Shown here: positions 30,169 through 48,971 of the stretch, one piece after another
How positions within the stretch are numbered: position 1 is the stretch's first letter
Layout: the number at the start of each line of letters is the position of its first letter
Assembly: GCA_903901975.1 (NCBI GenBank)
Contig: CAIUTB010000055.1
Location: 1-64,000 of the forward strand
DNA length: 64,000 bases
Direction of reading: 5' to 3'
Source: an uncultured Bacteroidales bacterium
Lineage (GTDB): Bacteria > Bacteroidota > Bacteroidia > Bacteroidales > Paludibacteraceae
Program-made: the position numbers and the translations under genes
Notes under the pieces: model-generated
Told to the model about the DNA's origin: nothing
The model's input: the letters and a program-made list of their open reading frames with translations, nothing else
The model's database searches: none

Positions 30169-30867
30169 TTATAGCTTAGATAGGTTTCGAGTTTTTTTGA
30201 ACTTCCAAATTCCATACATTGCTGACAAGCAGAACAACACAATCCAACCATCACCCACGGGAATTGGATCACCAGTTGGATCACCACCGGGGTCAGTTGT
30301 AGGGTCAGTACCAGCACCAACCGATTGTTTATTTGTAGTATTAGTAGACAATAAAGACAAATCAGTAGTTAATGAAATCAATCCGGGAGATAAATTTGTA
30401 TTTGATTTATTTTTGGAGTTTTTACCTGAAAAAGTGTATAAGTCACCTCCTATTCCTGAATTAGTATTCGAATTAGCTGAAACATGATCAGCCATATTAG
30501 AAATCTGATAACCCTGGTTATTAGAACTGGAGCTGAAACCAGTATTATTATTTGTAAATGCTCTCTTTAATCCTCCATTGTTGTTGATATCAAGCAAAGA
30601 ATTTTCGGATGAACCTGAATTTCCATCGCCGCTGAATCTTTTCTTATTATTATTAATCGTAATTTTACTTGTATTATCTAATTTGCTTGAATAATTAATG
30701 GCACTGCCATTAAAAGCAACTCCTTGATTAGCAATATAGAATCGTTTTGGTCCGTACAGTTCAGGACTACCAAATGGAGAATAGAGAACAGCCAAGAGCA
30801 AACCTGCCCATGTCAACACCCAAACTAATATGTTTTTTTGTCTTTTATCCACTTTATTATCTGACAA
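30169..30867 (-). CDS. Companion of the giant adhesin; low-complexity protein with C-terminal PVGDG-helix-basic tail
   Basis: The 232-aa product has an N-terminal membrane segment (about 13-29), then YSPFGSPELYGPKRFY. A long Asn/Ser-rich low-complexity region, a Thr/Asp/Pro/Gly stretch (TDPTTDPGGDPTGD) and a C-terminal tripartite tail follow: PVGDG, a hydrophobic helix (WIVLFCLSAMYGIW) and KFKKTRN. The tail has the layout of sorting signals such as PEP-CTERM or LPXTG, but the motif is different. It overlaps the end of the giant adhesin gene by 11 bases, so co-translation is likely. Function is unknown; I infer a surface or envelope partner of the adhesin. Confidence 0.65.
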   Translation of the reverse strand: MSDNKVDKRQKNILVWVLTWAGLLLAVLYSPFGSPELYGPKRFYIANQGVAFNGSAINYSSKLDNTSKITINNNKKRFSGDGNSGSSENSLLDINNNGGLKRAFTNNNTGFSSSSNNQGYQISNMADHVSANSNTNSGIGGDLYTFSGKNSKNKSNTNLSPGLISLTTDLSLLSTNTTNKQSVGAGTDPTTDPGGDPTGDPIPVGDGWIVLFCLSAMYGIWKFKKTRNLSKL

Positions 30868-33800
30868 TTAATCTCTTAGAAAAATCCTCTTTAGCAGTGA
30901 TAACTCTAGCTATATAAGCTCCAGGCACTATGCCCGAAAGGGTAATAATACCATTGGGAACCAATGGAAGTTTTTCTAAATAATGACCTGCAATATCATA
31001 AATCATGATATCTCCTTTTGAATTATCAAGGTTTTGTACAAAAATATTTCCGTTGCTGCTGAAGACCTTAATCTGACTTTCCGTATCCGGGGCATTTTCT
31101 TCATAATGGCGTGCCACTATTTTAAACCGTTTATCAGTCAGTGTTGAAGATGTAGCTGAGAACGAATAGGTTGTGCCACTTTCAGTTACATCTATTGTTT
31201 TGTTATCGAGTAAGTCAACCAAATAAACACCAGCATATTTTGATTTAATATTGGTATGTGTAAATGTCAAATTATATTCAGTGTCTTCACCAACCAGAAA
31301 ACCAATTTCAGTATCATTTATATCATCTACTGCATTAACCTGATATTTGCCATCCGGTTCAACAGCGTAGATCTGAGGTGAAAGTGCAGAACCTATAAAT
31401 TTGCTTCCATCCCATCCATTATTAAATGTTCTTGTGCATCCAGGTTGACTGATTAACCATAAGCGATCGGAAGCTTTCCTTCCTTTTACATCAATAATAG
31501 TTGAAACCTTATCAGTATTACCAAAAAGGTTGTTATTAATCCCTTTTATTCTATGTATTGCTGAGTCAAAATCTACTACAATAGAAGTATACCGAATTCC
31601 AAAAGTAGCATTGGAAGAAAGATTTTTGGCTTTTATTAATACCGACTGCATCGAAGCTATTTGTGCAGGAAGAGTAAATTGACCTGCAAGATTCTTTGGA
31701 ACAGCTATATATTGTCCGGCACCCAGACCAGAAGTAGTTCCTGCATCGGGTAACCATTGATTATATGTGCCTGTGTTATACAAATATGCGGTGCTCTCAA
31801 CATCAGTGCCATAATCTAAATCATAAATTGAAATACCCGCAGTATACGAATTTGCATAAACATGTTGTCCCGGGTACAATGCTGTAGGAGTAATTGCCAT
31901 CTGACCAGAGCTAAAGTCGCTTGTGACTAAAGTGCCCTGAAAAACAATTGTAGTTGGGGCAGCCTGACAAATTTCATATCCATAAAATGGATCTAATGTT
32001 GAATCATTTGCGAGCTGTATCCAATGATTTGTAATGTTAGTACCTATTTCATACCATTTTCTTACATAAGATCCCATAAAAGTAGGCATAGCCGTTACTG
32101 TAGTAACCGGTATCCCAAAGTACTGCCATTTATACTTACTATTTATGGGTTGGTTCAAGTCCCATGAAGCTTTTGAATACATTTCTACAGTTGCGTTAAC
32201 GACTGTGTTTTGTGTTGGTTGATTGAAATGTAAAGAACCATTTGCAAGTGTAGAACTCGACAATATATCTATCCTGTTAGGATCTCCATCGGTTATCGTA
32301 TAATTATTTACTTCAAGTCCTTTTGCTGCGGGAATTACTAATGCTTTTGTAGTTGCATTAATTAAACTGCCAATCGTTCTGTTTTTATCGAGCCATAAAT
32401 CGTTAATTGCCACTGAGTCAGTATTAGCAACAGTAGCATATTCGACATCATCACCCGGTAGCGGAACGTAATTTCCTGTCCAGTTTCTAGGTTTTGCCCA
32501 ATCGGTATCAGTATAGCCATACCAGTAATTTGTTCGTGTAATTACTGTTGCAATCACATTTGCATTAGCCGGATTATTTGAAACGCAGCTTAGGCTTGAA
32601 GTCAAAACACATTTTATGGTGTCTTTATCGTTAGGTATATAAGTATAGGTTGTACTGTTAGTACCAACTGGACTACTATTTACATACCATTGATATGTTG
32701 GTGTACTTCCTCCGTTAGTTGGTGTAGCAGTATAGGTTACAGGAGTATTTTTGAAAACAGGATTCGCTGAAGCTACGACTGTCACACTGACTGGAACAAT
32801 TGGATTGACTGTCACATCGGTAGTAGATGTTGCCGGTAAAATCTGCCCGAACACTATATCGTCCAAAGCAAAGTCATTACCGGCTAAAACAGTATTTTGA
32901 TTTATCAATTCCAGGTTCAAAACCGTATTCGAACCCGCTGAAGCATTATAAAGGAATTGAGCCCACTGGTAATTTACCTGGGGTGCTGTATAAACAGGTC
33001 CGGCAGCGACTCCATTTACATAAAGTTGGAGTTGAGATGCATTTTTGGGAACCTGAGTTATATTCACTGTTTGTTCCCAATAGGTAAACGCATAAGTTGC
33101 GCCGGGAATAACAGGGACTGATTGACTCCAAACTACAACACCAGCCACAGGAGCACCATTAACAACCATTTGTAAGCCTCTGCCTGTAGTATGGTCGGGC
33201 CAAGTGGTAAAATCAGAATGTACAGAATGTGGTAGTTTTACCACTGTATAATCACCTTCAGGAACTAAAGCTGATGTGCTGGTTGTATCAACATAGGTAT
33301 ACCCGCTTCCGAAGCCAACTTTTCCTAACTCAAAGTCACCATTAAATACAAGATTACCACCTACATTTACATTTCCGGTAACTGTATATGTTCCACTCAT
33401 TGATGCAGTTGCCGAAGTTAAAGTCGGATTTTGAGCTAAGGTGTAGAATGAATTTGGTCCTTGCCAGTAACGGTTTTGAATATCAGCCCCGGTACTTGTC
33501 AGATTAATGGTAGAACCTTCACAAAAAGTTCCACCGCCTCCGGCAGTAACCAATGGTGATACAAACACTGTACCGACTAAAGCTACATTCTTAGTGCCAG
33601 CACCTGTTGAAGCTACGGTTATATTTACTCCGGTATAACTACCTGCAGTTAAAGCGGATTTTAATCGTACATAAATTAAAGTAGGATTTACCCGTCCGGA
33701 AGTTAAACTAATAGTAAGAGGAGTAGATTGGAATCCGGAACCCGATGTTGTAGAAATTTCATAATTTGAAGGAGGTGTTACAATAATACCAGCCGAAAGC

Positions 33801-36800
33801 GATGTTCCACTAACCGTAAACTTTTGTTCGCTGGATGGCCCTGTGCCTTGCATATATCCAAAACCAGTCAAGGTAGAAACAGATGTGAGAACGGTTGGTG
33901 TAGAAGGGGACGAAGCAACTACTGTACCTGCTAAAGCAACAGTTTTTATAATTGCGCCACTAGATTTCAATGACACATTAGCTGGTCCAAAATTAGTAGT
34001 AATAGTATTTGATCCAAGTCCAGTAACCATCCTGACATAAATTGTAGTTGATCGTGTGGAAACCCCTGCTGCACGAGTAAGAATAATCGAACCGGTTGTA
34101 AAACCTGATCCCGAAGTAGTAGAAATTTCAAAGTTTGCAGGAGCTACAATTGTATCATTCCGTAATGTAGTTGATAAATTAGTTCCATTTAACACAAATG
34201 ATTGTTCTCCGGAAGGACCAGCTCCGAAAGTATAAATAAAGCCAGCAAGATAGGAAGTGGCGGTTGTCAAAGTTGGAGCAGCAGTTACAGTTCCCGTCAA
34301 TGCCACAGTTTTATCGGTAGCACCTACAGCAGATGCCGTAATATTTTGATTATGTGATCCCACACCCAAGCCAGCAGGCATAATTACATAAATGGTTCTA
34401 CTGGCCAATGTTCCGCCGGTTGGGGTTAAAGTGATAGGGGTTGATGCATAACCCGATCCATTTGTCGTTGATATCAGATAATCCGATGGAGGTGTAACAG
34501 TAACATTCCCGGACAGATTAGTTCCACTTACTGTAAAGGTTTGTTGTGCGGTTGGGCCTTTAGTATAAACATAACTGAAACCACTCAAACTTGTTGGGGT
34601 AACAGTAATTGTAGGTGCATTACCAACAGTACCACTACAAGTTACCGTTTTTGTTGTTGCACCTGAAGCAGATGCTGTGATAAGTTCAGAAGTGCTATAT
34701 GTTCCTATTGCCAATCCGGCTTTTAATCGAACATATATAGTTGTTGTGGGAACAGCACCACTGCTGATAGCTAAACTAATTGGACTTGTCGCAACAAAAG
34801 AAACTCCACTAGTTGTAGAAATTTCGTAATCAGTTGCATCTGTTAATGATATATTTGTCGATAATGAACTTCCTTTGACAGTAAAGGTCTGCTCTGATGA
34901 AGGTCCCGTTCCGTAAGGATAACTGAAGCCACTAAGAGTTGTGGTAGACACTGTTATAGTTGGAACTCCCTGAGCCAATACAAAGAAGCGGTTAGTTCCA
35001 ATTAGATTTGAGTTGCTGATACCAAAGCCTCCTACAGTTCCAAACAGTGATGTGTATGTTCCGTTTACAGCTGTTACATTTCCAGCCAAAACATCATTAG
35101 GAGCAATAGAAGTGGTTTTACTAACAGAAAGTGTGGAATTAGTGAAATTACCGCTTGTTACTAATGCCCAATACTCTGTAGCACTTATAGCCGTTAAAGT
35201 GGCATCTTTCCCACCTGAAGAGTTTGTGTCAAAAGCTTCAACCTGAGCAGTAACTGTACCTGTTGTAGTTGTAGGATTTACAAGAGAGAATGGTAAATAT
35301 GTTGTTCCTTTTCCAACTGGAAACAAGTACGTAGACCCTGATACTAAATTGGCGGGTAATGTCCATTTTAAAGGGCCACTTACAAATGATGTGATCGCGG
35401 TACTTGAAATGGCCGTGCTGGCAGTATTAGTAACAGACAGTAATGCCGATGTTGATGATGTCAAAATACCACTTCTCAATATCAGGTTATTTGTTACTGT
35501 AGCATTCTTGCCTAATGTAGTTCCTCCTGAATTGATTGTCAGGTTGTAGAACGTATTTGAAGCGGCAGTTCCGTCTATAATTTTTGCTGTTCCGGTCATA
35601 TTGATAGTTCCTGTTCCCGGAGTAAAAGTTCCACCATTATTTGTCCAGTTTCCATTTACGGTATGAGAAAATGCTCCACTTGTGAAAGTAGTACCGTTAC
35701 CGATAGTTACATCTCCATTAATTGATAATGCTACAACCCCTGTTGTTAGTGTTGTTGTTGTACCGGGAGTTGTTGTACTCAGCGTAAAGTTTCCTCCAAT
35801 GGCTGTAGTTCCTGTTGCTAGTGTTTTTGTACCGCTTCCTGCGAGAGTCAGGTTATAATAGTTTCCAGTCTTTACAGTTTGATTTCCAGCAAAATTATAA
35901 TTCACAGTATTTCCTACGGCAATAGCATTTAGGTTTGACAAACCCATTGCACCAGTAAAACTAACATTCAGAATTCCGGTTCCTCCCTGAGTCAGCGTGC
36001 CACCTGTTCCGTTTAAAGCTGTTGTTACAGTTAACGTTCCGTTATTTGTATATGTTCCGGTAATGTTAGCTGTAGGAATAGAAGTTAGGGTTGATCCACT
36101 GAGTATTTTATTAGTCCCTGTAAAGTTGTGCGATCCGGAACTTGCTGTAAAAGTATTTGCACTATTAGCGAAACTTCCTGCAATTGCTATAGTTGCCGCA
36201 CCTGTTTCATTCCAAAAAGCACCTGAGTTCAAAGTTATATTCCCAGTAAAAGTTTTAGTTCCTGTATTTCCCAAAGTGAGTGTTCCGGTTACAGAGGTTG
36301 TTCCGGTAACACCTAAAGTCCATGTATTAGTAGCGCCTGTTGTAAGAGTAGTACCTGTTCCTACCGTTAAATTGCCAGCAATAGTTGTGGCAGCTACAGT
36401 TGTGGCAGTAGCAGTTCCACTTAGCGTTAAACTTCCTCCAATTGCTGCTGAAGCTGCTTGCAATGTTTTGATACCACCACCTGAAAGCCCAAGGTTATAA
36501 TAAACAATCGGAGCAGTAGTTTGAGCACCTGCTGCATTATAGTTTACGGTACTAGTTGCAGCGGTAAAAGTTCCGGCTATACTAGATGTTCCGCCAATAT
36601 TTATTGTACTAGAGCCACCATTTAATGTAGTACCTGCTGTGCTAGACCAGTTCCCGGATATAGTATGTGTAAGTCCGGCTCCCAAATTTAAGGTTCCGGT
36701 TGCACCGGTTAACGATAAAGTTGATGCATTTACATTTCCGGTGAATGTTGCCGTACCACTTGCTTTAGTACAGGTAACTCCACCGGTAGTAGTAAATCCG

Positions 36801-39800
36801 GCAATGCTCTGTGTCCCGGTTCCGTTTATTGTAATTGCTGAACCATTAGCAGTAAATGTACCACTATTATTCGTAAAGTTTCCTCCAAAAGTCAATGCGA
36901 AGTTACTTGCACTAGTATTGAGAGTAGCTCCGCTGTTAATGGTCAGATTAGCTGTCACTACTTCAGCACTGTTTATAGTAATTGCTCCGGTACTACCAAT
37001 AATTATGCCTCCTGTTGCTACAAAAGGAGTAATCCATTCTGCACCGGCAGTACGAGCAGTTGCTGTATTATACTGTAATGTTGCAGCAGCACCGTAAGTT
37101 GGAGCAGCTGAAACAGTTCCTGTTTCTTCCATCGAAAGAATACCATTAACAGTCGGAGTTGTTGAGAATGTTTTTAATCCAGTTCCTGCTATGGTCAGGT
37201 TATTGAATGTATTTGTGCCGCTAATTGTTTGTGCTCCACCGGTAAGTAATACAGTACTTGTATTAGCAGTGAATAGTCCATTATTAGTCCAGTTTCCTGT
37301 AACAGTCAGCATGTTTGAAGCTGTAATGGTTAACGAAGAACTTGCATTAATTGTAATATTATCACAAGATGAAGTCGCTCCAATAACCGGCTTATTGGTT
37401 ACATTTGGAATAATTACATCATCAGCTGATGTTGGAACCGCACCATCCGACCAGTTTGTTGCTACATTCCAGTCAGCACTTGTAGTTCCAGTCCAACTTT
37501 TCGTTGTATTCAGTATGCCGGTTGCTGCGGCGAAATATGTGGGATTAATATTGCTTGCAGCCGAACCTGTACCACCCCATGTGGAAGTTCCCTGTTTGAC
37601 TCCGACAAAGTAAAGTGCTTTAGCTGTATGTGTAAGCCCTGTACCTAAATTAGCAACAACACCACTGCCAATTGAGAAATTATTATTGGTTACCGTTGCG
37701 CTTGCAAATGTTTTTGTTCCGCTACCTGCCAGAGTAAGATTGTTGAAGGTAGTTGCACCTGTAATCGATTGTGTTGTTCCATTCAGATTAATGGTACTTG
37801 TTCCGGCAGTAAAAGTAGCACTGTTACTAAAGTTCCCGGCAATATTATGAGTATAAGTTCCTGCCGTAAATGTGGTTCCGGTACCGATAGTCAAATCAGC
37901 GCCAATAGTCAAGCCGATTACAGCTGTGGTAGTTGCCGTGCCACTGAGTGCAAGAGTTCCGCCTATTGACGTAGTTCCCGTTTGTAAGGATTTAGCACCA
38001 CTGCCCGACAAATTCAAATTATAAAAATTATTTGCATTTACTGTTTGTGCTCCACCCGTAAAGTTTACAGTATTTCCTGTTGCCGTAGTAGTAAGTGTAG
38101 TAATTCCCGCTGTTCCTCCAATATTAAGGATTCCGGTCGTTCCCTGAGTTACACCTCCTGTGCCTGATAAAGCAGTTGTTGCTGTTATAGTTCCGTTATT
38201 GGTGAGTGTAGTTCCTGTTACTGTCAATAAGGTTGCCGATGTTAATGTTCCGGAATTGCTGTAAGCACCGGTAAAAGTAACTGAGGGTATAGAAGTTGTT
38301 GTTGCTCCGCCGAGTGTTTTGGTAGCTCCGCTGAAAGTGTGAGTTCCGGTGTTTGAAGTAAAAGTAGTTGCATTATTTGTAAAGCTTCCTCCAAAACCAA
38401 TAGCAGCAATTCCTGTTTCATTCCATACAGCACCGCTGTTTAGTGTAATATCGCCTGTAAATGTTTTAGTTCCGGTATTAGCCAAAGTAAGAGTTCCTGT
38501 AACATCGGTTGTACCACCTACCGCTAAAGTCCAGGTATTGGTAGCACCTGTTGACAGTGTTGTACCAGTTCCCACTGATAAATTACCGGTTATCGACAAA
38601 GCACCTACAGTGGTAGTAGTCGCTGATCCACTTAAGGTAAGACTTCCCAGTGTGGTTGTTCCTGCCTGAAGAGTTTTCACAGCACTTCCGGAGAGGATTA
38701 AATTATTAAAGTTCAATGCAGCAACCGTCTGAACACCGGCATTGTCATAATTAACTGTACCTCCGGTAAAAGTATTGGTGCTGTAATTAGTTGGGAAATT
38801 TGATGTGCCACCTATCAATAAAGTTCCTGCAACAGTAAGAGTTCCACCTGTAGTCGCACGGTTTGCTGTGAAAGTAGCTAAATCCAGACTTGTGCCCGAA
38901 CCAATATTCAAGTCACCTGCTATACTTAAGTTTGCAACTAAAGTGCCAGTTGCAGTTCCTGATAATGTCAGATTTCCCCCAATTGTTGTAGTTGTGGCTT
39001 GCAAGGTTTTTGCACTTGTTCCTGAGAGAATAAGATTGCTGTAGTTAATCCCCGAAACCGTTTGAATGCCGGCATTATCATAATTCACGGTACTTCCGTT
39101 ACTAAGCGTTGTAGTTGCAAATCCTGTTGGAAAATTCGTTGTACCCCCAACAAGTAAAGTGCCAGTAGACGAAAGAGTTAATGTCCCGGTTCCGACCATT
39201 GCAAAAGTGCTTAGATCAAGTGTTCCGTTGACTGTAACTGAAGATGCAGTAGCTGCAGCTGTTAAAGTAACCACATGTCCACTTTGAATGATTACTAAAT
39301 TGTCTAAGCTCGAAGGTACACTGGTAGCAGTCACCCAACTTGCATTATCGAATGATTGTTGCCAAGTTGAAGTACTATTCCAATTTCCTGTTGTAAAGCT
39401 CCTGAAGTATTTTGGGGCATACTTTAAACTCATTCCAGTCATTGAGACCAAAGAAGTACCACTCATTGTTATTGAAGAAACATCTGTTACAGTTGTTGTA
39501 GGAACACTCCTGTATTCGGTAAAATTTCGAACTCCATCACCAGTTGCAAAAGTTTGTTCTGGAGTTAATCTGGTCCAGTTCACAGGGTTTGTCGATACTG
39601 TACGGGGTGTTGTGTTTGCACTACGCAAAGAACTGATAATTTCAACAGCCTGGTCACCAGCATTAATTGTAATACCGGTAGCATAAGCAAATGTAGTTAC
39701 AGCAGTAGTAATACTATTGTAAGTTTGGGAATTTGTTATTGGAGATATTTGGTCAACATCATCATAAACTGCTGCATAAACAGTATTAACACAAGTAGTC

Positions 39801-40306
39801 CCTCCGGCTAAAGTTATTGCAAGAGTTGTATTTGTCGCGGCTTCAATCCCTGCTTCATTCAGATAATACAACTGAGTGTGTTGGCGAGTGGTTGCAGTTG
39901 CCATATCACCACTTACAGGAGTCATTGTCTGTCCTCCATAAGTGATTGTAACTGTACGTGCCCCCACTGCAGTTTGAGATGAAGCTATACCAACTACCAA
40001 AACACGATTAGTATTTGTTCCTGTTGGCACAGAATAGGTTAAGCCCGGAGGAGTATTAGCGGTATTGTTATATAAGTTTGACCAGGTGTTTAATGTTGTT
40101 ACATCAGCATAAGCAGACATTAGTCCAATAGCCAAAAATACGATTAACATAGCTAATCGTACAGAAAAGAGGGACTGCATAGTCCTATAATTTTCAGGTT
40201 TATTCAAACGCTTAAAAATATTAGTTTGCAAATCAACATCAAAAAGGCTCATTGTCTTTATTTTGTGAGATATATTTTTATAAGCCGCAATAGACTTTTT
40301 AACCAT
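30857..40306 (-). CDS. Giant repetitive T9SS-exported adhesin-like protein
   Basis: About 3150 aa. After a long basic leader and signal helix (LAMLIVFLAIGLMSAYADV) come Ser/Thr/Gly-rich filamentous repeats of the type NLILSGSGxKTLQxGTTxIGG (DNA about 35500-39300). Four roughly 110-residue beta-sandwich repeats starting LSGFSYxYGxGPSSEQTF follow (about 33560-34960), then an Ig-like segment, a carbohydrate-binding-like jelly roll (LVFNGDFELGKVGFGSGYTY; about 32850-33350) and a T9SS type A sorting domain ending GAYIARVITAKEDFSKRLIV. The first ATG (40333) lies inside the -7 box, so I use 40306; 40252 and 40180 are alternatives. It is probably a surface fibre or adhesin. Confidence 0.85.
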   Translation of the reverse strand: MVKKSIAAYKNISHKIKTMSLFDVDLQTNIFKRLNKPENYRTMQSLFSVRLAMLIVFLAIGLMSAYADVTTLNTWSNLYNNTANTPPGLTYSVPTGTNTNRVLVVGIASSQTAVGARTVTITYGGQTMTPVSGDMATATTRQHTQLYYLNEAGIEAATNTTLAITLAGGTTCVNTVYAAVYDDVDQISPITNSQTYNSITTAVTTFAYATGITINAGDQAVEIISSLRSANTTPRTVSTNPVNWTRLTPEQTFATGDGVRNFTEYRSVPTTTVTDVSSITMSGTSLVSMTGMSLKYAPKYFRSFTTGNWNSTSTWQQSFDNASWVTATSVPSSLDNLVIIQSGHVVTLTAAATASSVTVNGTLDLSTFAMVGTGTLTLSSTGTLLVGGTTNFPTGFATTTLSNGSTVNYDNAGIQTVSGINYSNLILSGTSAKTLQATTTTIGGNLTLSGTATGTLVANLSIAGDLNIGSGTSLDLATFTANRATTGGTLTVAGTLLIGGTSNFPTNYSTNTFTGGTVNYDNAGVQTVAALNFNNLILSGSAVKTLQAGTTTLGSLTLSGSATTTTVGALSITGNLSVGTGTTLSTGATNTWTLAVGGTTDVTGTLTLANTGTKTFTGDITLNSGAVWNETGIAAIGFGGSFTNNATTFTSNTGTHTFSGATKTLGGATTTSIPSVTFTGAYSNSGTLTSATLLTVTGTTLTNNGTITATTALSGTGGVTQGTTGILNIGGTAGITTLTTTATGNTVNFTGGAQTVNANNFYNLNLSGSGAKSLQTGTTSIGGTLALSGTATTTAVIGLTIGADLTIGTGTTFTAGTYTHNIAGNFSNSATFTAGTSTINLNGTTQSITGATTFNNLTLAGSGTKTFASATVTNNNFSIGSGVVANLGTGLTHTAKALYFVGVKQGTSTWGGTGSAASNINPTYFAAATGILNTTKSWTGTTSADWNVATNWSDGAVPTSADDVIIPNVTNKPVIGATSSCDNITINASSSLTITASNMLTVTGNWTNNGLFTANTSTVLLTGGAQTISGTNTFNNLTIAGTGLKTFSTTPTVNGILSMEETGTVSAAPTYGAAATLQYNTATARTAGAEWITPFVATGGIIIGSTGAITINSAEVVTANLTINSGATLNTSASNFALTFGGNFTNNSGTFTANGSAITINGTGTQSIAGFTTTGGVTCTKASGTATFTGNVNASTLSLTGATGTLNLGAGLTHTISGNWSSTAGTTLNGGSSTINIGGTSSIAGTFTAATSTVNYNAAGAQTTAPIVYYNLGLSGGGIKTLQAASAAIGGSLTLSGTATATTVAATTIAGNLTVGTGTTLTTGATNTWTLGVTGTTSVTGTLTLGNTGTKTFTGNITLNSGAFWNETGAATIAIAGSFANSANTFTASSGSHNFTGTNKILSGSTLTSIPTANITGTYTNNGTLTVTTALNGTGGTLTQGGTGILNVSFTGAMGLSNLNAIAVGNTVNYNFAGNQTVKTGNYYNLTLAGSGTKTLATGTTAIGGNFTLSTTTPGTTTTLTTGVVALSINGDVTIGNGTTFTSGAFSHTVNGNWTNNGGTFTPGTGTINMTGTAKIIDGTAASNTFYNLTINSGGTTLGKNATVTNNLILRSGILTSSTSALLSVTNTASTAISSTAITSFVSGPLKWTLPANLVSGSTYLFPVGKGTTYLPFSLVNPTTTTGTVTAQVEAFDTNSSGGKDATLTAISATEYWALVTSGNFTNSTLSVSKTTSIAPNDVLAGNVTAVNGTYTSLFGTVGGFGISNSNLIGTNRFFVLAQGVPTITVSTTTLSGFSYPYGTGPSSEQTFTVKGSSLSTNISLTDATDYEISTTSGVSFVATSPISLAISSGAVPTTTIYVRLKAGLAIGTYSTSELITASASGATTKTVTCSGTVGNAPTITVTPTSLSGFSYVYTKGPTAQQTFTVSGTNLSGNVTVTPPSDYLISTTNGSGYASTPITLTPTGGTLASRTIYVIMPAGLGVGSHNQNITASAVGATDKTVALTGTVTAAPTLTTATSYLAGFIYTFGAGPSGEQSFVLNGTNLSTTLRNDTIVAPANFEISTTSGSGFTTGSIILTRAAGVSTRSTTIYVRMVTGLGSNTITTNFGPANVSLKSSGAIIKTVALAGTVVASSPSTPTVLTSVSTLTGFGYMQGTGPSSEQKFTVSGTSLSAGIIVTPPSNYEISTTSGSGFQSTPLTISLTSGRVNPTLIYVRLKSALTAGSYTGVNITVASTGAGTKNVALVGTVFVSPLVTAGGGGTFCEGSTINLTSTGADIQNRYWQGPNSFYTLAQNPTLTSATASMSGTYTVTGNVNVGGNLVFNGDFELGKVGFGSGYTYVDTTSTSALVPEGDYTVVKLPHSVHSDFTTWPDHTTGRGLQMVVNGAPVAGVVVWSQSVPVIPGATYAFTYWEQTVNITQVPKNASQLQLYVNGVAAGPVYTAPQVNYQWAQFLYNASAGSNTVLNLELINQNTVLAGNDFALDDIVFGQILPATSTTDVTVNPIVPVSVTVVASANPVFKNTPVTYTATPTNGGSTPTYQWYVNSSPVGTNSTTYTYIPNDKDTIKCVLTSSLSCVSNNPANANVIATVITRTNYWYGYTDTDWAKPRNWTGNYVPLPGDDVEYATVANTDSVAINDLWLDKNRTIGSLINATTKALVIPAAKGLEVNNYTITDGDPNRIDILSSSTLANGSLHFNQPTQNTVVNATVEMYSKASWDLNQPINSKYKWQYFGIPVTTVTAMPTFMGSYVRKWYEIGTNITNHWIQLANDSTLDPFYGYEICQAAPTTIVFQGTLVTSDFSSGQMAITPTALYPGQHVYANSYTAGISIYDLDYGTDVESTAYLYNTGTYNQWLPDAGTTSGLGAGQYIAVPKNLAGQFTLPAQIASMQSVLIKAKNLSSNATFGIRYTSIVVDFDSAIHRIKGINNNLFGNTDKVSTIIDVKGRKASDRLWLISQPGCTRTFNNGWDGSKFIGSALSPQIYAVEPDGKYQVNAVDDINDTEIGFLVGEDTEYNLTFTHTNIKSKYAGVYLVDLLDNKTIDVTESGTTYSFSATSSTLTDKRFKIVARHYEENAPDTESQIKVFSSNGNIFVQNLDNSKGDIMIYDIAGHYLEKLPLVPNGIITLSGIVPGAYIARVITAKEDFSKRLIVR
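33560..34960 (-). repeat. Four tandem beta-sandwich repeats within the giant adhesin
   Basis: Each repeat is about 340-370 bases and opens with a GFxYxxGxGPSSEQxF-like motif. The motifs sit at about 34890-34930, 34540-34580, 34200-34245 and 33815-33870. Each ends KTVALxGTV. Confidence 0.8.
35500..38757 (-). repeat. Two large copies (about 1.1 kb) of the filament repeat block
   Basis: Copy 1 (about 37640-38757) and copy 2 (about 35500-36548) share the same order of about 360 residues: VNYxxAGxQT, TTLxTGATNTWTL, TGTLTLxNTGTKTFTG, ITLNSGAxWNETG, TSIPxxxxTGxYxNxGTLT. They are separated by about 1.1 kb of related but shorter repeats. Identity is moderate, so the duplication is not recent. Confidence 0.7.
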
Positions 40307-40330
40307 TTTATAATGAATGAGAAAACAGAG

Positions 40331-40361
40331 CAAAAGTAATGATTAATAATGAATAACCAAA
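40331..40361 (-). promoter_or_regulatory. Promoter of the giant adhesin (TTTG-N19-TACTTTTG)
   Basis: On the minus strand TTTG (40358-40361) and TACTTTTG (40331-40338) have ideal 19-base spacing. Transcription should begin near 40325, which excludes the ATG at 40333 as start codon. Confidence 0.75.
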
Positions 40362-41343: not shown

Positions 41344-42033
41344 ATGAGAAAAATTAATTTCTTTGCAGTTATGTTGTTATGTTCTGCAACAGTATTTGGA
41401 CAAGCAGTTAAAGACAGAAATGTTATTCCTGTTGCAGTAAACCTTAATCAGGTAATGCGTATGACGATTACAAATGGTGGTAACATCGAATTTGTTTTTA
41501 ATACCATTAATGATTACAAGAATGGTATATCAGCTGATGCTATTGGAGGAACTACTGGTGTTATGTATGAAACCAACTTCACCGTTTCATCTTCAACCCG
41601 TTGGAAGCTAACTTATGGTTCTGAAACTGCAGATTTTCAAGGAACAGATGATCCATCTCACATTTTATCGCTTGACAATGTAGGTTTTGCACTTTCTAAA
41701 TCAGGGAATCATTCATTTGAAACTACGACAACAAAAGGAACAAGTGCAGCAGAACTTTACAGTCATCCAACAAAAGGTGGTCAGGAAGTTGCAGCATTGC
41801 AAGCTTATCCTACACTGTTGATTGAAGATAACAATAAACCAGGTTCTGCAGCTCTTTCTGATGCCGGTGATGCAAGTGACAATTCATTTAAAATGAGCTG
41901 GCGTGTTGGAACCAAAGAGAGCCAGGGGAAAACAACTCCAATGAACTCAGTAGCAATTATTGATCAAACTACAAGTCCGTCTCCAGACAGATATGTTGCC
42001 AGTGTAGTATTTGATCTTGAAATGGATAATTAA
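41344..42033 (+). CDS. Secreted beta-rich protein, putative major fibre subunit
   Basis: The 229-aa product starts with a signal peptide (MRKINFFAVMLLCSATVFGQ). The mature part is polar, without Cys, and rich in alternating beta pattern: PVAVNLNQVMRMTITNGGNIEF near the N-terminus and a final strand YVASVVFDLEMD. It matches no family I can name with certainty. Position first in the operon, a long leader, an attenuator hairpin straight after it, and the usher-like and chaperone-like neighbours suggest the abundant structural subunit. Function is inferred from context. Confidence 0.6.
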   Translation: MRKINFFAVMLLCSATVFGQAVKDRNVIPVAVNLNQVMRMTITNGGNIEFVFNTINDYKNGISADAIGGTTGVMYETNFTVSSSTRWKLTYGSETADFQGTDDPSHILSLDNVGFALSKSGNHSFETTTTKGTSAAELYSHPTKGGQEVAALQAYPTLLIEDNNKPGSAALSDAGDASDNSFKMSWRVGTKESQGKTTPMNSVAIIDQTTSPSPDRYVASVVFDLEMDN

Positions 42034-42056
42034 TAAATTTATATCTGCATAACAGG

Positions 42057-42094
42057 AAGATTGATCGACATGGTTTATGTTGGTCAATCTTTTT
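42057..42094 (+). terminator. Intra-operon hairpin terminator/attenuator
   Basis: AAGATTGATCGACAT (42057-42071) pairs with ATGTTGGTCAATCTT (42077-42091) through 15 pairs including two G-U, with a 5-base loop and then TTT. It lies 24 bases after the first gene and 30 before the second, both on the same strand, so partial termination would favour the first gene. Confidence 0.8.
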
Positions 42095-42124
42095 GTCGCA
42101 TATATTCAACCTGCTAACTGCCAA

Positions 42125-42700
42125 ATGATTCCTTTCTATTTAAAACAAATCCTGTTTGTATTGCTAATTCTTAGCAGTAGTGAGCAGGCTGTGTCTCAAG
42201 AGTGGAATTATGCCCGATTAAATGTTATGTACGGCAGTTCCATACCTTTTAATTTTAGTACTATGGATAAAATTAAAAAAGGTGTAGAAATAAACCCGGG
42301 TACCCGCTTTGGGATTTCATTGGCGGATTCGGCCAGAGTTGGACATGTACTTCAAGGATTTGTACTTAATTTCAGAACATTCAATAACCAAAATGTAATA
42401 AAAGGTGATTCCTATTCTATTCCGTTAAACAGGATACGTGTTAAAGCTGAGAATGCTACCGGACTGGAATCGGGAACATCGTACGGATATTTGGATCTTT
42501 CATCGAATTGGATGCCTTTATTCTCATTTACCAATCTGACATGGCACGATTTGAACTGGGCAAATGCACAGCTTAATATCTCTTTCGAGTGTGGAAAACC
42601 AACCATATCGGGTGGAAATGGGAATTTATTAGGCGAAGAACCTGATTACTACAATGTGGAAATAGAATTTGAATTAGTGCCTACAGGATTGGGTTTTTGA
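42125..42700 (+). CDS. Secreted beta-rich protein, putative minor or tip subunit
   Basis: From ATG 42125 it has 191 aa with a signal peptide (FYLKQILFVLLILSSSEQAVSQ). An upstream in-frame start at 42077 lies in the terminator stem and is rejected. The mature protein is beta-rich (YARLNVMYGSSIPFNFSTMD) and ends in a strand VEIEFELVPTGLGF, comparable in pattern to the end of the preceding protein. No family recognised. It sits between the putative major subunit and the usher-like gene, as minor subunits do in chaperone/usher loci. Confidence 0.55.
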   Translation: MIPFYLKQILFVLLILSSSEQAVSQEWNYARLNVMYGSSIPFNFSTMDKIKKGVEINPGTRFGISLADSARVGHVLQGFVLNFRTFNNQNVIKGDSYSIPLNRIRVKAENATGLESGTSYGYLDLSSNWMPLFSFTNLTWHDLNWANAQLNISFECGKPTISGGNGNLLGEEPDYYNVEIEFELVPTGLGF

Positions 42701-42731
42701 CTATTAATGACATGCTCTAATTCAGAAAACA

Positions 42732-45700
42732 GTGATTCTTAACAACAACTATTCCACTACTACTCTAAGGTCGTTAATGATCTTATGGATAAGTTGTAGC
42801 TTTCTGTTCAGCAATTTTAATAGTGCTTGTTATGCTCAAGACTCAGGCTTCAACATAGAAATGAGGTTTGTAAAATCAAACGATAGTATCAAATCGACCG
42901 ATCTGTATTTTAATGTACTAACGATTTGTAACAGCTCTTCAAAAAAAATTACCGGAAATCTTACTTTTAATATTCCTGAAGATTGGAAAATTATCAGCTT
43001 TCCTACTGAGCAAACAGTCATTCTTCCTGGAGATACGGTTTTTGTTCCAATTCGTATATCTCCTAAATCCAATGCAATCGGAGGTATAGCATATATAATT
43101 AAGGCTAGCTTCCGCACATCCAAACAGTTAATCAGCGCCAACACCTATCTTACCTTGCCGTCTTTGATAAAATGGGAAATGACCACAAACAGGACCACTG
43201 CCTATATTACCGAGAGCAGCCCGAAAACGTTTTTCGAAATTAAGCTCACAAACAAAGGTAACACCAACGAACTGATAAAATTAAAACTCGATGCTGGAAA
43301 ACTACTGTCTTTTAGTGAGAATTCAGTAAATAACATGGTTGAATATGTAAATCTAAAGGCATTCACCGATACAACTATTTTACACTCGGTATTCATTCAA
43401 AATAAACTTAGTTTTGCTGAAAAAATAAGGTATGAAAATAACTGGAAAGAGTCGGCCATAAAAGTGACCGCTGAAAGTGAAAAAAATGAGAAGAGCACAG
43501 CTATACAGATTCATAAACTCAACAGCAGTTACGTAAATCAACGACTTCAAAGTTCTTCACCGCTCAATCTAGATTATCAGGTTTATAATCTCATGTCGAA
43601 CAGTGATGTACGTCACAATTTCAGATTATACGGGAGTTTGCTTTTCCCTGAAAACAGGGAGTTGCAGTATATTGCCGGTATTCAGAATTTTGGGATTGGG
43701 AATACCAGCGAAGTTTTTGATATTAATCGTCAGTTTGTATATAATTTAAAGTATACTGACAATCACAATAATGTACAGTTAGGTTATAATATTAGTGGAG
43801 GAAATTTGCACAGCATTAATGGGAGAGGTATTTCAGGAGTATTTAACCCTAATCGGCAAAATTCATTTTCGTATGCTGTGACTCAAAATCCTTATTCACA
43901 AATTATCGGTGAATTTGTTGGTTATAGCAAGTCATTCAAGAATTTTTCAGTAAATTCAGAACTAACTCACGACGGCATAGCCGATGGAACCTATCAAGCT
44001 ACTTCAGGCTTATTGGGTATTAGTATGAGTTTATTAAAATATCATTCTATTTCTGTCCAGTTTCTCGGATCTAAATCAGACTATAACAAAACTTTGCCTC
44101 GAGACACCAGTGTTCTGGGTTACAGTTACAACATTAACTACAATGTTCGATATAAAAAATTCAATCTAAGATTGAGCTCGTTGAATTCCGAGCACAATTA
44201 TATTCAGAATTCAGGGCTTCAGCAAACATACCTGGATAGCAGATATACAATTACTGATAATCTGGGGATGACGCTTTATGGAAGTCATCTTAAATACGCC
44301 ATAACACGTTTCCCTTATAACTTTTTCAACTCAGCAAATTATGATACAAATGATAATTTCAGACTCAGCACTTCACTTAGCACTCCAAATGTCGTATATC
44401 AGTTAGGACCGAATTATATTGGTTCCATCCGTCAGTCATATAATTCTTTTACTCATTACAAATCTGAATATACAAGTTATCAGCCTGGAGTATGGTGTGC
44501 TGTAACTATTAAATTTGATGGGTACAGATCTATAACTCCGAATCTGACTGTCAGTAATATCCGTTTTTATTACAAAACAGATGATCCGGCTATGCAAAAT
44601 TATTCATTCGACAAAAACATTTACTACTCGGCGGGTGTAAGTTATTTTGATAATGTCTGGAGAGTAAATGCCTATTATACAAGTGGGTCTACTACAGATT
44701 TATACCGGAGTGTGTTGATAGATGCGACGCCAACCATTACCCGAAGCATTCAGGTTCGCCCATCGTATGAGAACTTCTTTTTCAATCGGAAAATAAAACT
44801 GAGTGCCTCTATGAATTATGCCTATTACATGCCATCAGGACGTGAGAATGTTTCGTTTAATGTGAAGTACGATCAGTTTTTAAAAAGTGGATGGAATATT
44901 TCAGTCAGTGGATTTATGTACTCAAACACTCGCGTTGACGATAATCAGGGAAGGATAAGCACCAAAGATATCAATCTGGTAGTTGGAGTTACAAAGTCAT
45001 TTAACATTCAACAACCACGAATTAAATACTACAACCTCAAAACTATATTTTTCAATGATCTGGATGGAAATGGAATAAAAACAGAGAATGAACCCCCTGT
45101 TTCGAATATATTGGTCAATATTCAAAAAGACCGGACTACTTCTACAACTCCAAGTACAATCCCAGAAGTTCAGTTGTTGTCGGATGTAAGTGGTGCTATT
45201 GAATATGAAAATCTTCCAAAAGATAAATATATGATAAGTTTCAACCCATTGGTGAATCTTCAGAGTTTGTATTTTTTGAATGGTTCAGAGCAATCTTATT
45301 TAAATGACAAAGACAGAATATGGTATGTACCACTTGCTGAAAGTTATAAAATAAGAGGAAAGGTTATTGTTGTGCGTGATCCGAACAGTTCCGAAGGGAA
45401 AATAGAACTCGGGGGTATCCGTGTAATTGCTACTGGGAGAAAAGGCGAGAACTATTCTGCCTTGACCGATAATTTCGGATCGTATATTTTAAATGTTTCT
45501 AAATCCGGCAAGTTTAAAATACATGTAAATAATGTTTTTGGCGCACAATTTATTATTGACTCCAACGAAACAGAGGTTCAGTTCTCGGATAATAAAACAA
45601 TTAACCTTGACTTTACATTTGTTGAAAAAAAGCGTGGTATTCAGTTTGATGGTGGTGATGAACTGTTTAAGTTCAGCTCGCTTGGTGAGCAGTCCGAAAC

Positions 45701-46538
45701 ATCAGTTGTACGGGAAGAAACTCTGCAAGTTCAACAGCCAGTAGTAGAAGCTTCTAAAACCTATACTATTCAGTTGGCTGCATTAAAAACCTATCGCGAT
45801 CCATCATATTTCAAAATGAAGTATCATATAAAAGAAGATGTACATTATACCGAACAGAATGGTTCTTATAAATACTATACTGGCAGTTATCCTACGTCAA
45901 AGGCTGCAAAAGTAGCCATTGCCAAAACAGGTATTGCCGGAATTCCGGTTGAAGTGGGCAGAACAGCTCAGACTCAGCAACTTTCATCAAATCTAAGATC
46001 TGTTAAACCGACTCAGGACAGACCAGGAAAATCTAACAGAACATTTTCAACCAATAATCAGGATGAAATTGCTTATGTAAAGGGTAATGAAGAAGAGATG
46101 CTAAAAACTGAACCGGGAACCAGGCTGCAAACTAAAAGTCAAGCTGCTACGGTAACTCAGAATCAACCCGAACAACCCGCGAATCTCAATAATCAGGTAT
46201 TTATGCCCAAGACTGAACCGGCAAAGCAGGGGACTGATAAATCAACTCTTCTTGGTTATAAAAACGGAGACCAGGTAGATTTTATGATTGCTGTTTCCAA
46301 AAATCCGAACATTTTCACCATTCAACTTGATGAACTGAAAAGCTTCCGTGAGCCTTCATATTACAATCAAAAATACAAATTAAAAGAAAATATATATTAT
46401 CAGGAAAGCCATGGTTTGTTTCTGTACTTCTTGGGCATGTATGATTCACTGGACGAAGCAAAAGCCGCCATTACCCGCCACGGTCTAATGGGATATATTG
46501 TTGGGATGGATAAGAATCTGCTGAAGAGAGGGAAGTGA
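42732..46538 (+). CDS. Usher-like outer-membrane protein with two SPOR-like domains
   Basis: The 1268-aa product has a signal sequence ending NSACYAQ and an N-terminal Ig-like region (about 40-260; NLTFNIPEDWKIISFP). A long stretch of amphipathic strands rich in Tyr/Asn/Ser (about 270-760) looks like a large beta-barrel. Next is an SdrD/usher-C-terminus-like domain (FFNDLDGNGIKTENEPPVSN, from about 772) and a carboxypeptidase-regulatory-like domain (IRGKVIVVRDPNSS ... DNFGSYILNV, about 877-940). Two SPOR-like repeats (YTIQLAALKTYRDPSYF, about 1009-1078; FTIQLDELKSFREPSYY, about 1193-1260) close it. The order resembles ushers. The start is GTG 42732; ATG 42777 would remove the only basic residue before the signal helix. 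Confidence 0.65.
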   Translation: MILNNNYSTTTLRSLMILWISCSFLFSNFNSACYAQDSGFNIEMRFVKSNDSIKSTDLYFNVLTICNSSSKKITGNLTFNIPEDWKIISFPTEQTVILPGDTVFVPIRISPKSNAIGGIAYIIKASFRTSKQLISANTYLTLPSLIKWEMTTNRTTAYITESSPKTFFEIKLTNKGNTNELIKLKLDAGKLLSFSENSVNNMVEYVNLKAFTDTTILHSVFIQNKLSFAEKIRYENNWKESAIKVTAESEKNEKSTAIQIHKLNSSYVNQRLQSSSPLNLDYQVYNLMSNSDVRHNFRLYGSLLFPENRELQYIAGIQNFGIGNTSEVFDINRQFVYNLKYTDNHNNVQLGYNISGGNLHSINGRGISGVFNPNRQNSFSYAVTQNPYSQIIGEFVGYSKSFKNFSVNSELTHDGIADGTYQATSGLLGISMSLLKYHSISVQFLGSKSDYNKTLPRDTSVLGYSYNINYNVRYKKFNLRLSSLNSEHNYIQNSGLQQTYLDSRYTITDNLGMTLYGSHLKYAITRFPYNFFNSANYDTNDNFRLSTSLSTPNVVYQLGPNYIGSIRQSYNSFTHYKSEYTSYQPGVWCAVTIKFDGYRSITPNLTVSNIRFYYKTDDPAMQNYSFDKNIYYSAGVSYFDNVWRVNAYYTSGSTTDLYRSVLIDATPTITRSIQVRPSYENFFFNRKIKLSASMNYAYYMPSGRENVSFNVKYDQFLKSGWNISVSGFMYSNTRVDDNQGRISTKDINLVVGVTKSFNIQQPRIKYYNLKTIFFNDLDGNGIKTENEPPVSNILVNIQKDRTTSTTPSTIPEVQLLSDVSGAIEYENLPKDKYMISFNPLVNLQSLYFLNGSEQSYLNDKDRIWYVPLAESYKIRGKVIVVRDPNSSEGKIELGGIRVIATGRKGENYSALTDNFGSYILNVSKSGKFKIHVNNVFGAQFIIDSNETEVQFSDNKTINLDFTFVEKKRGIQFDGGDELFKFSSLGEQSETSVVREETLQVQQPVVEASKTYTIQLAALKTYRDPSYFKMKYHIKEDVHYTEQNGSYKYYTGSYPTSKAAKVAIAKTGIAGIPVEVGRTAQTQQLSSNLRSVKPTQDRPGKSNRTFSTNNQDEIAYVKGNEEEMLKTEPGTRLQTKSQAATVTQNQPEQPANLNNQVFMPKTEPAKQGTDKSTLLGYKNGDQVDFMIAVSKNPNIFTIQLDELKSFREPSYYNQKYKLKENIYYQESHGLFLYFLGMYDSLDEAKAAITRHGLMGYIVGMDKNLLKRGK

Positions 46539-46583
46539 AAAACAGGTAGCAGTTAACAGTCAATAATTAGCAGTTTTTTTATT

Positions 46584-46979
46584 CTATCTTGTATAAATAG
46601 CGTGAACATTAATCTCAGAACTCCCGTCGTACATATTATAATCAAAATCTATCCTCTTGAAATCGTTTGAAACAAGGCCTGTTCCTGATTTTACGGTTAG
46701 AGCTAGAATCTGTTGCTGTGTAATGGTCAGAGTCTTTCCGCTCAGATGTGCTAAGATAAATTCATTGACATCCTGATTATAAAAATTACTCATCAGATAT
46801 TGAGTGGTATCGGTACGTTTCCGGTCAATATCCACCAGGTAATTTCGTGAGCCATATGCTGAACTCTCAGCACAGTGCCACGACCCGATAATAGATGTAT
46901 GTGCCTGAGGCTCATTGCCAGTACACGAGATCAGAGTAATGCAACACAAAGCGATATAAAAAAAAGTTGTTTTTCTCAT
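46584..46979 (-). CDS. Small lipoprotein
   Basis: The 131-aa product has a lipoprotein signal with lipobox LISC (Cys19), then a short polar domain (SIIGSWHCAESSAYGSRNY) that could be a lipocalin-like barrel of the SIIGxW type. Its start overlaps the stop of the MORN gene by 4 bases (ATGA), so the two are coupled. Function unknown. Confidence 0.7.
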   Translation of the reverse strand: MRKTTFFYIALCCITLISCTGNEPQAHTSIIGSWHCAESSAYGSRNYLVDIDRKRTDTTQYLMSNFYNQDVNEFILAHLSGKTLTITQQQILALTVKSGTGLVSNDFKRIDFDYNMYDGSSEINVHAIYTR

Positions 46980-48163
46980 TCCACTACCTCTCCGTTTTTA
47001 TACATTCTGGTTTCAACCAGTTTTCCATTTTTAGCATATCCTTTTACCAGTCCGTCACGCTGTCCGTGATTAAAGCTTATCTCTGTCATCACAACGCCGG
47101 TTGTATAGTATGTTATCCAGAGTCCGGTTCGGGAATCATTTTCGTAATTGCCTTTGTTTTTCAGTTCGCCGCCTTCATAATAAAACAGCCATTCTCCTGT
47201 GGCATTCCCGGTCTTATACGCTCCGGTTTGTTTCAATTTTCCATTCGGGTAAAATATGTTCCAGATACCATCCAGTTTATTGTCAATGAAGGTACCTGTG
47301 CAGTTTGTTTGTCCGCCTTTATAAAATGATTTCCAAATACCGTTTTTCTTATTGCTTAGATAACTTCCTGTTTCCCTCGGTGATAACTTGGTTGTATCGT
47401 AATACTCAGTATAAATACCGGCTATCTGATCGTTTTCATACGTACATTCATTTTTTTTATTTCCGCTTGGGTAATAACCGATGAGCTTGCCTGTGAGTTT
47501 TCCGTCTTTATAATAGCACGTTTTGTTAATAGCCCCATCTTCAAATTCTTTGTAATAATCAGTAAACAGGCCATCATACACCCCGGCTTTTTTAAGTGAC
47601 TTTTCTTTAATCTTTCCATTTTCAAAATAGCTCGATGATGTTCCATACTCAACTCCATTATTGAACGATTTTACAAATCTTGGTTTTCCGTCTTCGTAAA
47701 ATGCCTTGACTTCGCCATTGGGCATGTTATTCAGGTAAATTGTCGATTCCTGAAGTTTTCCGTTTTCAAAATATGTAAATGATTCACCGTTCAGCAAATC
47801 ATTTTTATAGCTAAGTTTTTGTTGCACTTTACCTGAAGGATAATAATAATTCAGAATGCCGTTCAGTTTTCCTTCTGCATATGGCATTTCCTGTTTCAGT
47901 ATGCCGGTTTCATAATAATCCTTCCATAAACCATTGAGTTCATTATGATTATAATTGCCTTCCTGCCATAGTTTTTTATCAGAATAATAAATAGTATACT
48001 TGCCGTGTTTCACCAGTGTGTCATTCCCCACACTAACAACTATATACGATTCCTTTAGCTGAGTATGCGCCGCATCATACCAGGTGTTCAGTGTTCTTTC
48101 CTGCGTATAAGCAATGAAAGAAAATTGAATAAGAAACAGAATTACACAAAAACGATTTATCAT
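46976..48163 (-). CDS. Secreted MORN-repeat protein (YwqK-like)
   Basis: The 395 aa begin with a signal peptide (CVILFLIQFSFIAYTQ). About fifteen 20-24-residue MORN_2-type repeats follow, such as GIWKSFYKGGQTNCTGTF and GEWLFYYEGGELKNKGNY. These form an extended beta meander. Similar proteins are labelled YwqK antitoxin-like, but no toxin is seen here. It is the middle gene of a three-gene minus operon with a PapD-like chaperone and a lipoprotein, so I infer an envelope scaffold. Confidence 0.85.
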   Translation of the reverse strand: MINRFCVILFLIQFSFIAYTQERTLNTWYDAAHTQLKESYIVVSVGNDTLVKHGKYTIYYSDKKLWQEGNYNHNELNGLWKDYYETGILKQEMPYAEGKLNGILNYYYPSGKVQQKLSYKNDLLNGESFTYFENGKLQESTIYLNNMPNGEVKAFYEDGKPRFVKSFNNGVEYGTSSSYFENGKIKEKSLKKAGVYDGLFTDYYKEFEDGAINKTCYYKDGKLTGKLIGYYPSGNKKNECTYENDQIAGIYTEYYDTTKLSPRETGSYLSNKKNGIWKSFYKGGQTNCTGTFIDNKLDGIWNIFYPNGKLKQTGAYKTGNATGEWLFYYEGGELKNKGNYENDSRTGLWITYYTTGVVMTEISFNHGQRDGLVKGYAKNGKLVETRMYKNGEVVE

Positions 48164-48173
48164 GAATTAATAA

Positions 48174-48971
48174 CTACTTAATTTCTAACAATATTTGTGT
48201 TCCGCCGAGCGGTTGACGATGTCCGTAATCCAGAATAGCTGCAAGCGCATATTTACCTTTAGCCACTATTTCGGGCAGTTTTAACGTTAGTGTACGGGAA
48301 GCATCGGGATAAACCGATACTTTCATCGGATTAAATTTTTGCTCCTTTGCTGTCTGCATATCTGCCAATGCCAGATTTACATTAGCATCAATTACATTAT
48401 CACCATTATTGGTTATAAGTACTTCAAACGAGCGTTGTTTGTCACCCGGTTTGGTAACTTCTTTCAATCCTGAAATGCTTGCTTTGTAATTACTGTTACT
48501 TCGGGGCGATTGTTTGACCAAAATGATAATGCGTGGAACCAACATAACCCCGGCAGCAAGGGTTTTATCTGCTTCAAAAGTAGTTTGCTCTCTGGCCACT
48601 TCCACCTGAATAAGGCACCATTTAGCCGTAAAACCATCTTTTGGAACAGCCATTAAAGCTTCTATTGTAGCCGATTGATTTGGGTTAAGTTCAATAATCG
48701 AAGGGTTGAGGGTAAGCCAATCGGCACACGACCGCTTGCTTGTTCCAAGTGGAATCCCTTTTTTGGTGCCATCTTTTTCCAGCACATAATCGGCAAGTTT
48801 CAGACTGTATTTCTGGGGTTTTCCTGAATGATTAATCAGGTTGATTTCCTTTTTCTGGATTTCGCCCGGGTCGGCGGTAAAATTCATTAATACCGGTGAT
48901 ACCTCAAAATCCTGAGAGAAAAGGTAAGATGTAAAAAATATGAAACAGAAAAGAGATTTAATACGAAGCAT
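48174..48971 (-). CDS. PapD-like periplasmic chaperone
   Basis: The 265-aa product has a signal peptide (LFCFIFFTSYLFSQ) and an Ig-like first domain with the pattern of pilus chaperones: FEVSPVLMNFTADPGEIQKKEINLINHSGKPQKY, a WLTLNPSIIELNPNQSATIEALMAVP edge strand, and Cys82 and Cys119 that may pair. A second beta domain carries SFEVLITNNGDNVIDANVNL. In chaperone/usher systems such proteins hold subunits before export. The pairing with the convergent operon at 41344-46538 is inferred from proximity. The usual Arg/Lys anchors cannot be assigned by eye. Confidence 0.7.
   Translation of the reverse strand: MLRIKSLFCFIFFTSYLFSQDFEVSPVLMNFTADPGEIQKKEINLINHSGKPQKYSLKLADYVLEKDGTKKGIPLGTSKRSCADWLTLNPSIIELNPNQSATIEALMAVPKDGFTAKWCLIQVEVAREQTTFEADKTLAAGVMLVPRIIILVKQSPRSNSNYKASISGLKEVTKPGDKQRSFEVLITNNGDNVIDANVNLALADMQTAKEQKFNPMKVSVYPDASRTLTLKLPEIVAKGKYALAAILDYGHRQPLGGTQILLEIK

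Follow-up and report, generated by a model that had tools for sequence, protein, structure and literature searches.

A probable divergent chaperone-usher-like pilus pathway of Bacteroidota with subunits of the TLP family

Six genes at positions 41344–48971 of a 64,000-nucleotide stretch of DNA from an uncultured Bacteroidales bacterium (contig CAIUTB010000055.1; the whole stretch is called the window, and open reading frames are counted within it) quite probably encode a divergent chaperone-usher-like pilus assembly pathway of Bacteroidota. The genes specify two secreted subunits (SUB1 and SUB2), an usher-like barrel protein (USH), a PapD-like chaperone (CHAP), a MORN-repeat protein and a lipoprotein-like protein, and their standing as a conserved system and as the home of subunits of the family of TLP-1 and TLP-2 is well supported. 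Computed here are the conservation and co-occurrence of the genes, the kinship of the subunits with the TLP proteins, the predicted folds of CHAP and USH, and an N-terminal extension of SUB1 that is usually absent from SUB2. The reading as a chaperone/usher-like system had been put forward in a first-pass annotation of the window and gains support from the recurrence of the gene set across genomes, the large predicted barrel and the PapD-like fold of CHAP; the six open reading frames of that annotation were confirmed in place, in two groups that converge, SUB1–SUB2–USH on the + strand and CHAP–MORN–lipoprotein on the − strand. The features are as follows (aa, amino acids; AF2, AlphaFold2).

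41344..42033, +: SUB1, secreted subunit, 229 aa; probable shaft pilin of the TLP-1/TLP-2 family
41404..41451, +: donor-strand-like N-terminal extension of SUB1, residues 21–36, AVKDRNVIPVAVNLNQ; alternating hydrophobic pattern
42077..42700, +: SUB2, 207 aa, or 191 aa from the second ATG (42125), directly ahead of the signal peptide; SUB1 paralogue without the extension, probable tip subunit
42732..46538, +: USH, usher-like outer-membrane protein, 1268 aa, GTG start; from relatives and an AF2 model of the core
42798..43517, +: N-terminal beta-sandwich (Ig-like) domains of USH; AF2 model
43545..45014, +: USH barrel, 26 predicted strands, plugless; AF2 model
45027..45626, +: C-terminal beta-sandwich domains of USH (SdrD_B- and CarboxypepD_reg-like); AF2 model and Pfam (SdrD_B 27.9 bits, slightly below the cut-off of 29.7)
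45750..45953, +: SPOR-like repeat 1 of USH; Pfam 20.0 bits, slightly below the cut-off of 21
46269..46517, +: SPOR-like repeat 2 of USH, from its likeness to repeat 1 (40% identity across 68 aa)
48174..48971, −: CHAP, PapD-like periplasmic chaperone, 265 aa; from AF2, fold searches, hhalign and co-occurrence with USH
46976..48163, −: MORN_2-repeat secreted protein, 395 aa; accessory, Pfam 143.7 bits (cut-off 29.6), in 12/31 loci
46584..46979, −: lipoprotein-like protein, 131 aa; probably accessory, in 3/31 loci

Conservation and co-occurrence of the gene set

The survey covered 198 genomes of the same order, 395 genomes of the phylum and named genomes reached by a pattern scan (G numbers denote genomes and L numbers the fetched stretches, or loci, around matches), and no count was corrected for relatedness among the genomes. 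USH relatives were found at E 1e-3 in 37 of the 198 genomes of the order, of which 32 were counted as real after four tail-only matches and G067 (E 8e-4) had been dropped, and 15 of 48 CHAP genomes were dropped as weaker than 1e-20. CHAP was then present in 31/32 USH genomes and USH in 31/33 CHAP genomes, the exceptions being G017 (70% complete), G051 and G067. In the last of these a strong CHAP match (E 4.1e-76) lies about 3 kilobases from the weak USH match, which is broken by stops; the pair is perhaps a decayed copy.

Around USH, the 31 usher-selected loci of the order (the window included; many contigs end early) contain SUB in 28, CHAP in 17, and the MORN and lipoprotein genes in 12 and 3, respectively; the 13 loci from other families contain CHAP in 13/13 and SUB in 12/13. 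SUB matches account for 55/198 genes within four genes of USH versus 1/169 farther out in the usher-selected set, and CHAP matches for 13/198 versus 4/169. When loci were instead selected by a pattern scan of named genomes with a SUB1 motif (45 TLP-selected loci), USH was present in 43, CHAP in 38 and both in 37. The first-pass annotation had staked its reading on these genes occurring together across Bacteroidota, and together is how they were found. The MORN and lipoprotein genes, which it had noted as not known from classic systems, are present in the window; they look accessory, optional companions rather than fixed parts.

In the phylum sample a core-only USH profile picked up long relatives from other families within the same class. 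The barrel profile matched 66/395 genomes at E 1e-3, mostly through short matches to the SdrD-like or neighbouring domain; 12 genomes with matches over more than 300 profile positions, besides the window's own genome, were kept, 14 stretches were fetched from them and one from G032, and USH was present at the threshold used in 13 of these 15. A single-protein scan of genome contigs for CHAP relatives gave 93 pattern matches, none of them related. Two named species, Flavicella marina 2A-7 and F. sediminum ALS 84 (L109, L129), carry the gene set. In L084–L087 and L093, a 477–478-aa protein that follows USH matches SUB (E 1e-11 to 4e-14), and one or more look-alike secreted proteins of 180–198 aa, only some of which reach the SUB profile, stand in tandem ahead of CHAP; by analogy, this order may recall that of major pilin, chaperone, usher and adhesin. 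One locus with CHAP, SUB and USH genes, L126, comes from a record titled Chlorobiota bacterium, through either transfer or a binning error.

The subunits and the TLP filament proteins

Iterated profiles seeded separately with the 229-aa and 207-aa proteins converge on the same 56 proteins, so SUB1 and SUB2 form one family (SUB). The major subunit and the second secreted protein of the first-pass annotation are thus both present, not as separate kinds of protein but as one family, probably shaft and tip. In the PDB, TLP-1 and TLP-2 (9ikj, 9ikk; 16 chains each) are both hit by the SUB-family profile (E 1.3e-21). The SUB1 of L057 aligns with TLP-2 over residues 2 to 236 of 237 (E 5.6e-44), and TLP-1 and TLP-2 share 41–42% identity with the SUB1 proteins of L056 and L057. 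TLP-2 groups with L097, L098 and L099 (support 1.0) at 49–55% identity, the highest value being that of L097; these records are titled Chitinophaga pinensis (a metagenome-assembled genome) and Bacteroidetes bacterium (two). In the 395 phylum genomes TLP-2 gave one match, G515. The window's SUB1, searched alone against the PDB, gave no TLP match, and a profile of 16 members of its clade had TLP-2 and TLP-1 as its sole PDB matches up to E 10, at E 0.025 and 0.05. As judged from sequence, the window's SUB1 is a distant member of the TLP family, linked to it via intermediates. We take TLP-1 and TLP-2 to be among the fibrils of the CryoSeek study of pond water, reportedly that of Wang in PNAS in 2024. 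According to a review (PMC12967142), a conclusive identification of filaments from pond water could not be made.

No FimA/Mfa-like domain was matched by Pfam among 37 SUB-family members at E 0.1, and comparison of SUB with eight E. coli pilins aligned only 8 columns (probability 14), so that no sequence kinship with classical pilins is claimed.

The two subunits differ at the N-terminus. In the usher-selected pairs, the distance between the estimated start of the mature protein and a fixed core residue is 30–32 residues in 23/23 SUB1 proteins, whereas its median in SUB2 is 17 residues, and SUB2 is at least 8 residues shorter than SUB1 in 20/23 pairs; an alternating hydrophobic stretch lies in the extension of SUB1 in 21/23 and of SUB2 in 2/23. 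The exceptions to the pattern are L048, L055 and L056. In the TLP-selected set SUB2 is shorter in 26/39; in the remaining 13/39, and in L056, the strand is replaced by a segment that contains a minimum of two Cys. This Cys-bearing segment, seen in SUB2 of L056, L097, L098, L106, L108 and others, is perhaps an adhesive or capping element. The rule for measuring the extension was revised after results had been seen, and the third rule is the one reported (8/31 usher-selected and 4/43 TLP-selected loci were dropped from its count); under the first, SUB2 was shorter by 8 in 43/65 pairs, and under the second, which miscalled the signal peptides of the window and L105, SUB2 was shorter in 46/64 and the strand was present in SUB1 in 63/64 and in SUB2 in 7/64. 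Since the TLP-selected loci were picked by a SUB1 motif, the donor-strand claim is drawn from the usher-selected set. A long extension in SUB1 and a short one in SUB2 is what donor-strand exchange predicts for shaft and tip, and SUB1 is probably the shaft and SUB2 the tip subunit.

Predicted folds of the chaperone-like and usher-like proteins

The Pfam scan of the window's six proteins gave no family match for SUB1, only sub-threshold Ig-like matches for CHAP and no match to the Usher family, and NCBIfam scans gave no useful name. Because Pfam names neither a chaperone nor an usher here, the two labels are invisible to family profiles: PapD-like is based on profile–profile comparison and predicted structure, and usher-like on predicted structure.

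The AlphaFold model of CHAP has a two-domain PapD-like fold with CfaA as the top Foldseek match, as the first-pass label for the 265-aa protein had foreseen, and hhalign links CHAP to the PapD family. The WxL-interacting protein (WxLIP) fits the predicted fold equally well as CfaA. Weak matches to PF00345 occur in 4/16 CHAP sequences (best E 0.0042), the relatives L082 and L085 scoring 18.2 and 15.1 bits, below the cut-off of 23. Sequence matches of the CHAP family to WxLIP are likewise weak: against PF06030 (WxLIP_PGBD), the window's CHAP scores 13.3 bits and does not reach the cut-off of 27.3, and its relative L085 passes with 28.4 bits.

In the AF2 model of the USH core, 26 consecutive strands lie between beta-sandwich domains, with a largest gap of 19 residues (one model), and the largest insertion in the barrel across 28 relatives is 16 residues. 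The top seven PDB rows returned by Foldseek are FimD ushers, and several FimD chains align collinearly with the model, starting at 253 or 254 and ending at 940 or 942. On the model, USH is a barrel with extra-membrane domains on its N- and C-terminal sides. Of the 24-strand barrel with plug that had been expected, the large barrel was thus recovered, with 26 strands instead of 24 and without a plug-sized insertion.

Among 29 rows of USH and its relatives, OmpA was matched in 12 and SPOR in 4 (Pfam, E 0.1), the window's own row having been cropped ahead of its SPOR repeats; seven further tails included SPOR in L120, whose contig equals that of L057 in length, and in L054, already among the 29, and neither family in five. 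By sequence, SPOR and OmpA appear as alternative tails of one USH family. The SPOR-like domains first annotated in USH thus represent one version of the tail, OmpA tails being commoner among relatives. OmpA and SPOR families bind peptidoglycan elsewhere, and for this reason USH may be tethered to it.

Proposed assembly and alternative explanations

From these results we infer export, donor-strand exchange, a tip-then-shaft order and peptidoglycan binding. CHAP would catch the secreted SUB1 and SUB2 in the periplasm, completing their fold to keep them assembly-ready, and would hand them to USH, a putative 26-strand outer-membrane barrel whose flanking beta-sandwich domains may recruit the CHAP–subunit complexes. 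SUB2, without a donor strand of its own, would begin the fibre as its tip; SUB1 units would come next, each donating its N-terminal strand to its predecessor in the fibre, and the SPOR tails (OmpA elsewhere) would fasten the channel to peptidoglycan.

The likeness to chaperone-usher systems (CfaA of CFA/I, archaic CsuC and classical FimC/FimD) lies in the two-domain fold of CHAP, the flanked USH barrel with FimD as its best Foldseek match, the pairing of a subunit that bears a donor-like extension with one that lacks it, and the grouping of chaperone, usher-like and subunit genes. Several results weigh against this interpretation. Unlike the usher, with 24 strands and a plug, USH has 26 predicted strands, no predicted plug, and OmpA or SPOR tails; a second aligner ranks MtrB (6r2q) above FimD; no relation of USH to the usher shows in sequence, hhalign giving a probability of 0.5; and PF00577 is above its cut-off in 0/99 genomes, its single sub-threshold match being in G032, a genome whose fetched locus (L096) lacks a USH match. 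For CHAP, PapD_N (PF00345) has no match in the window's own genome, and no K or R is invariant across 26 CHAP sequences, whereas R44 and K148, a basic pair with a functional role in chaperones, are invariant in six E. coli chaperones. The USH channel may be of separate origin from the usher. It is conceivable, at somewhat less than even odds, that the genes represent a separate pilus branch, in which a plugless 26-strand channel, OmpA- or SPOR-tethered and not derived from FimD, builds TLP-type filaments with a PapD-related chaperone, the owners of those filaments being Bacteroidota near L097–L099.

That USH is instead another conduit or porin of the MtrB kind, or a mere fibre anchor, with the subunits leaving by, for example, type IX secretion, is unlikely: USH co-occurs near-strictly with a PapD-like chaperone, its barrel has beta-sandwich domains on both sides, and inspection of the SUB alignment by eye revealed no type IX sorting tail. 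The barrel size shared with MtrB is no sign of kinship, and MtrB conduits neighbour electron-transfer partner genes, whereas pilin and chaperone genes are found here. A surface coat like the WxL systems found in Firmicutes, for which the fold and weak sequence matches of CHAP to the WxLIP of Enterococcus speak, would make CHAP a binder of peptidoglycan or a partner, SUB the material of a coat or of short complexes, and USH a wall-tied barrel, with no polymerization through it. Such a coat is improbable, given the 16-chain assemblies, reportedly filaments, in which TLP-1 and TLP-2 were solved, the donor-like strand by which SUB1 and SUB2 differ and the FimD match of USH; the window's CHAP is also well short of the Pfam cut-off, and we know of no barrel or pilin-like partners from WxL loci.

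The two convergent gene groups, the placement of CHAP more than four genes from USH in 4 loci and its absence from 14/31 usher-selected stretches would suit a subunit–barrel triplet working alone, with the chaperone group as a frequent neighbour. For the set as a whole this is very improbable, because genomes without CHAP in the stretch mostly carry it elsewhere, and USH and CHAP are found together in most TLP-selected loci; for the MORN and lipoprotein genes it is probably right. Type V pili (FimA/Mfa1) of Bacteroidales are likewise Bacteroidota fibres with strand-based assembly, but SUB lacks a FimA/Mfa match in Pfam, and mature SUB proteins seem by eye to begin at Q rather than at a lipobox Cys.

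Other genes were observed nearby. A repetitive secreted protein of 3158 aa (window 30857–40333, −), transcribed away from SUB1, resembles a type IX secretion sorting tail at its end (by eye) and has no BLAST match among the 30 relatives' stretches compared. A conserved gene for a 624–706-aa protein lies upstream of SUB1 in L036, L038, L039, L043, L044, L046 and L047; that of L046, the single one scanned, combines TPR repeats with a SpoIIE phosphatase domain and is a possible regulator. A response-regulator-like gene lies nearby in L084–L087 and L093.

In conclusion, the chaperone-usher-like pathway proposed here appears to be a divergent, little-known variant of such machinery; no described chaperone-usher system in Bacteroidota was found in the open-access texts consulted, subscription papers and preprints being outside this scope. 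If the proposal is true, Bacteroidota possess a recurring pathway that has been overlooked by usher and PapD family models, and the solved TLP filaments would gain genes, a route of assembly and candidate hosts. It raises the question of how an usher could function plugless and tethered to the cell wall, and, because two named Flavicella species carry the gene set, the pathway is testable.
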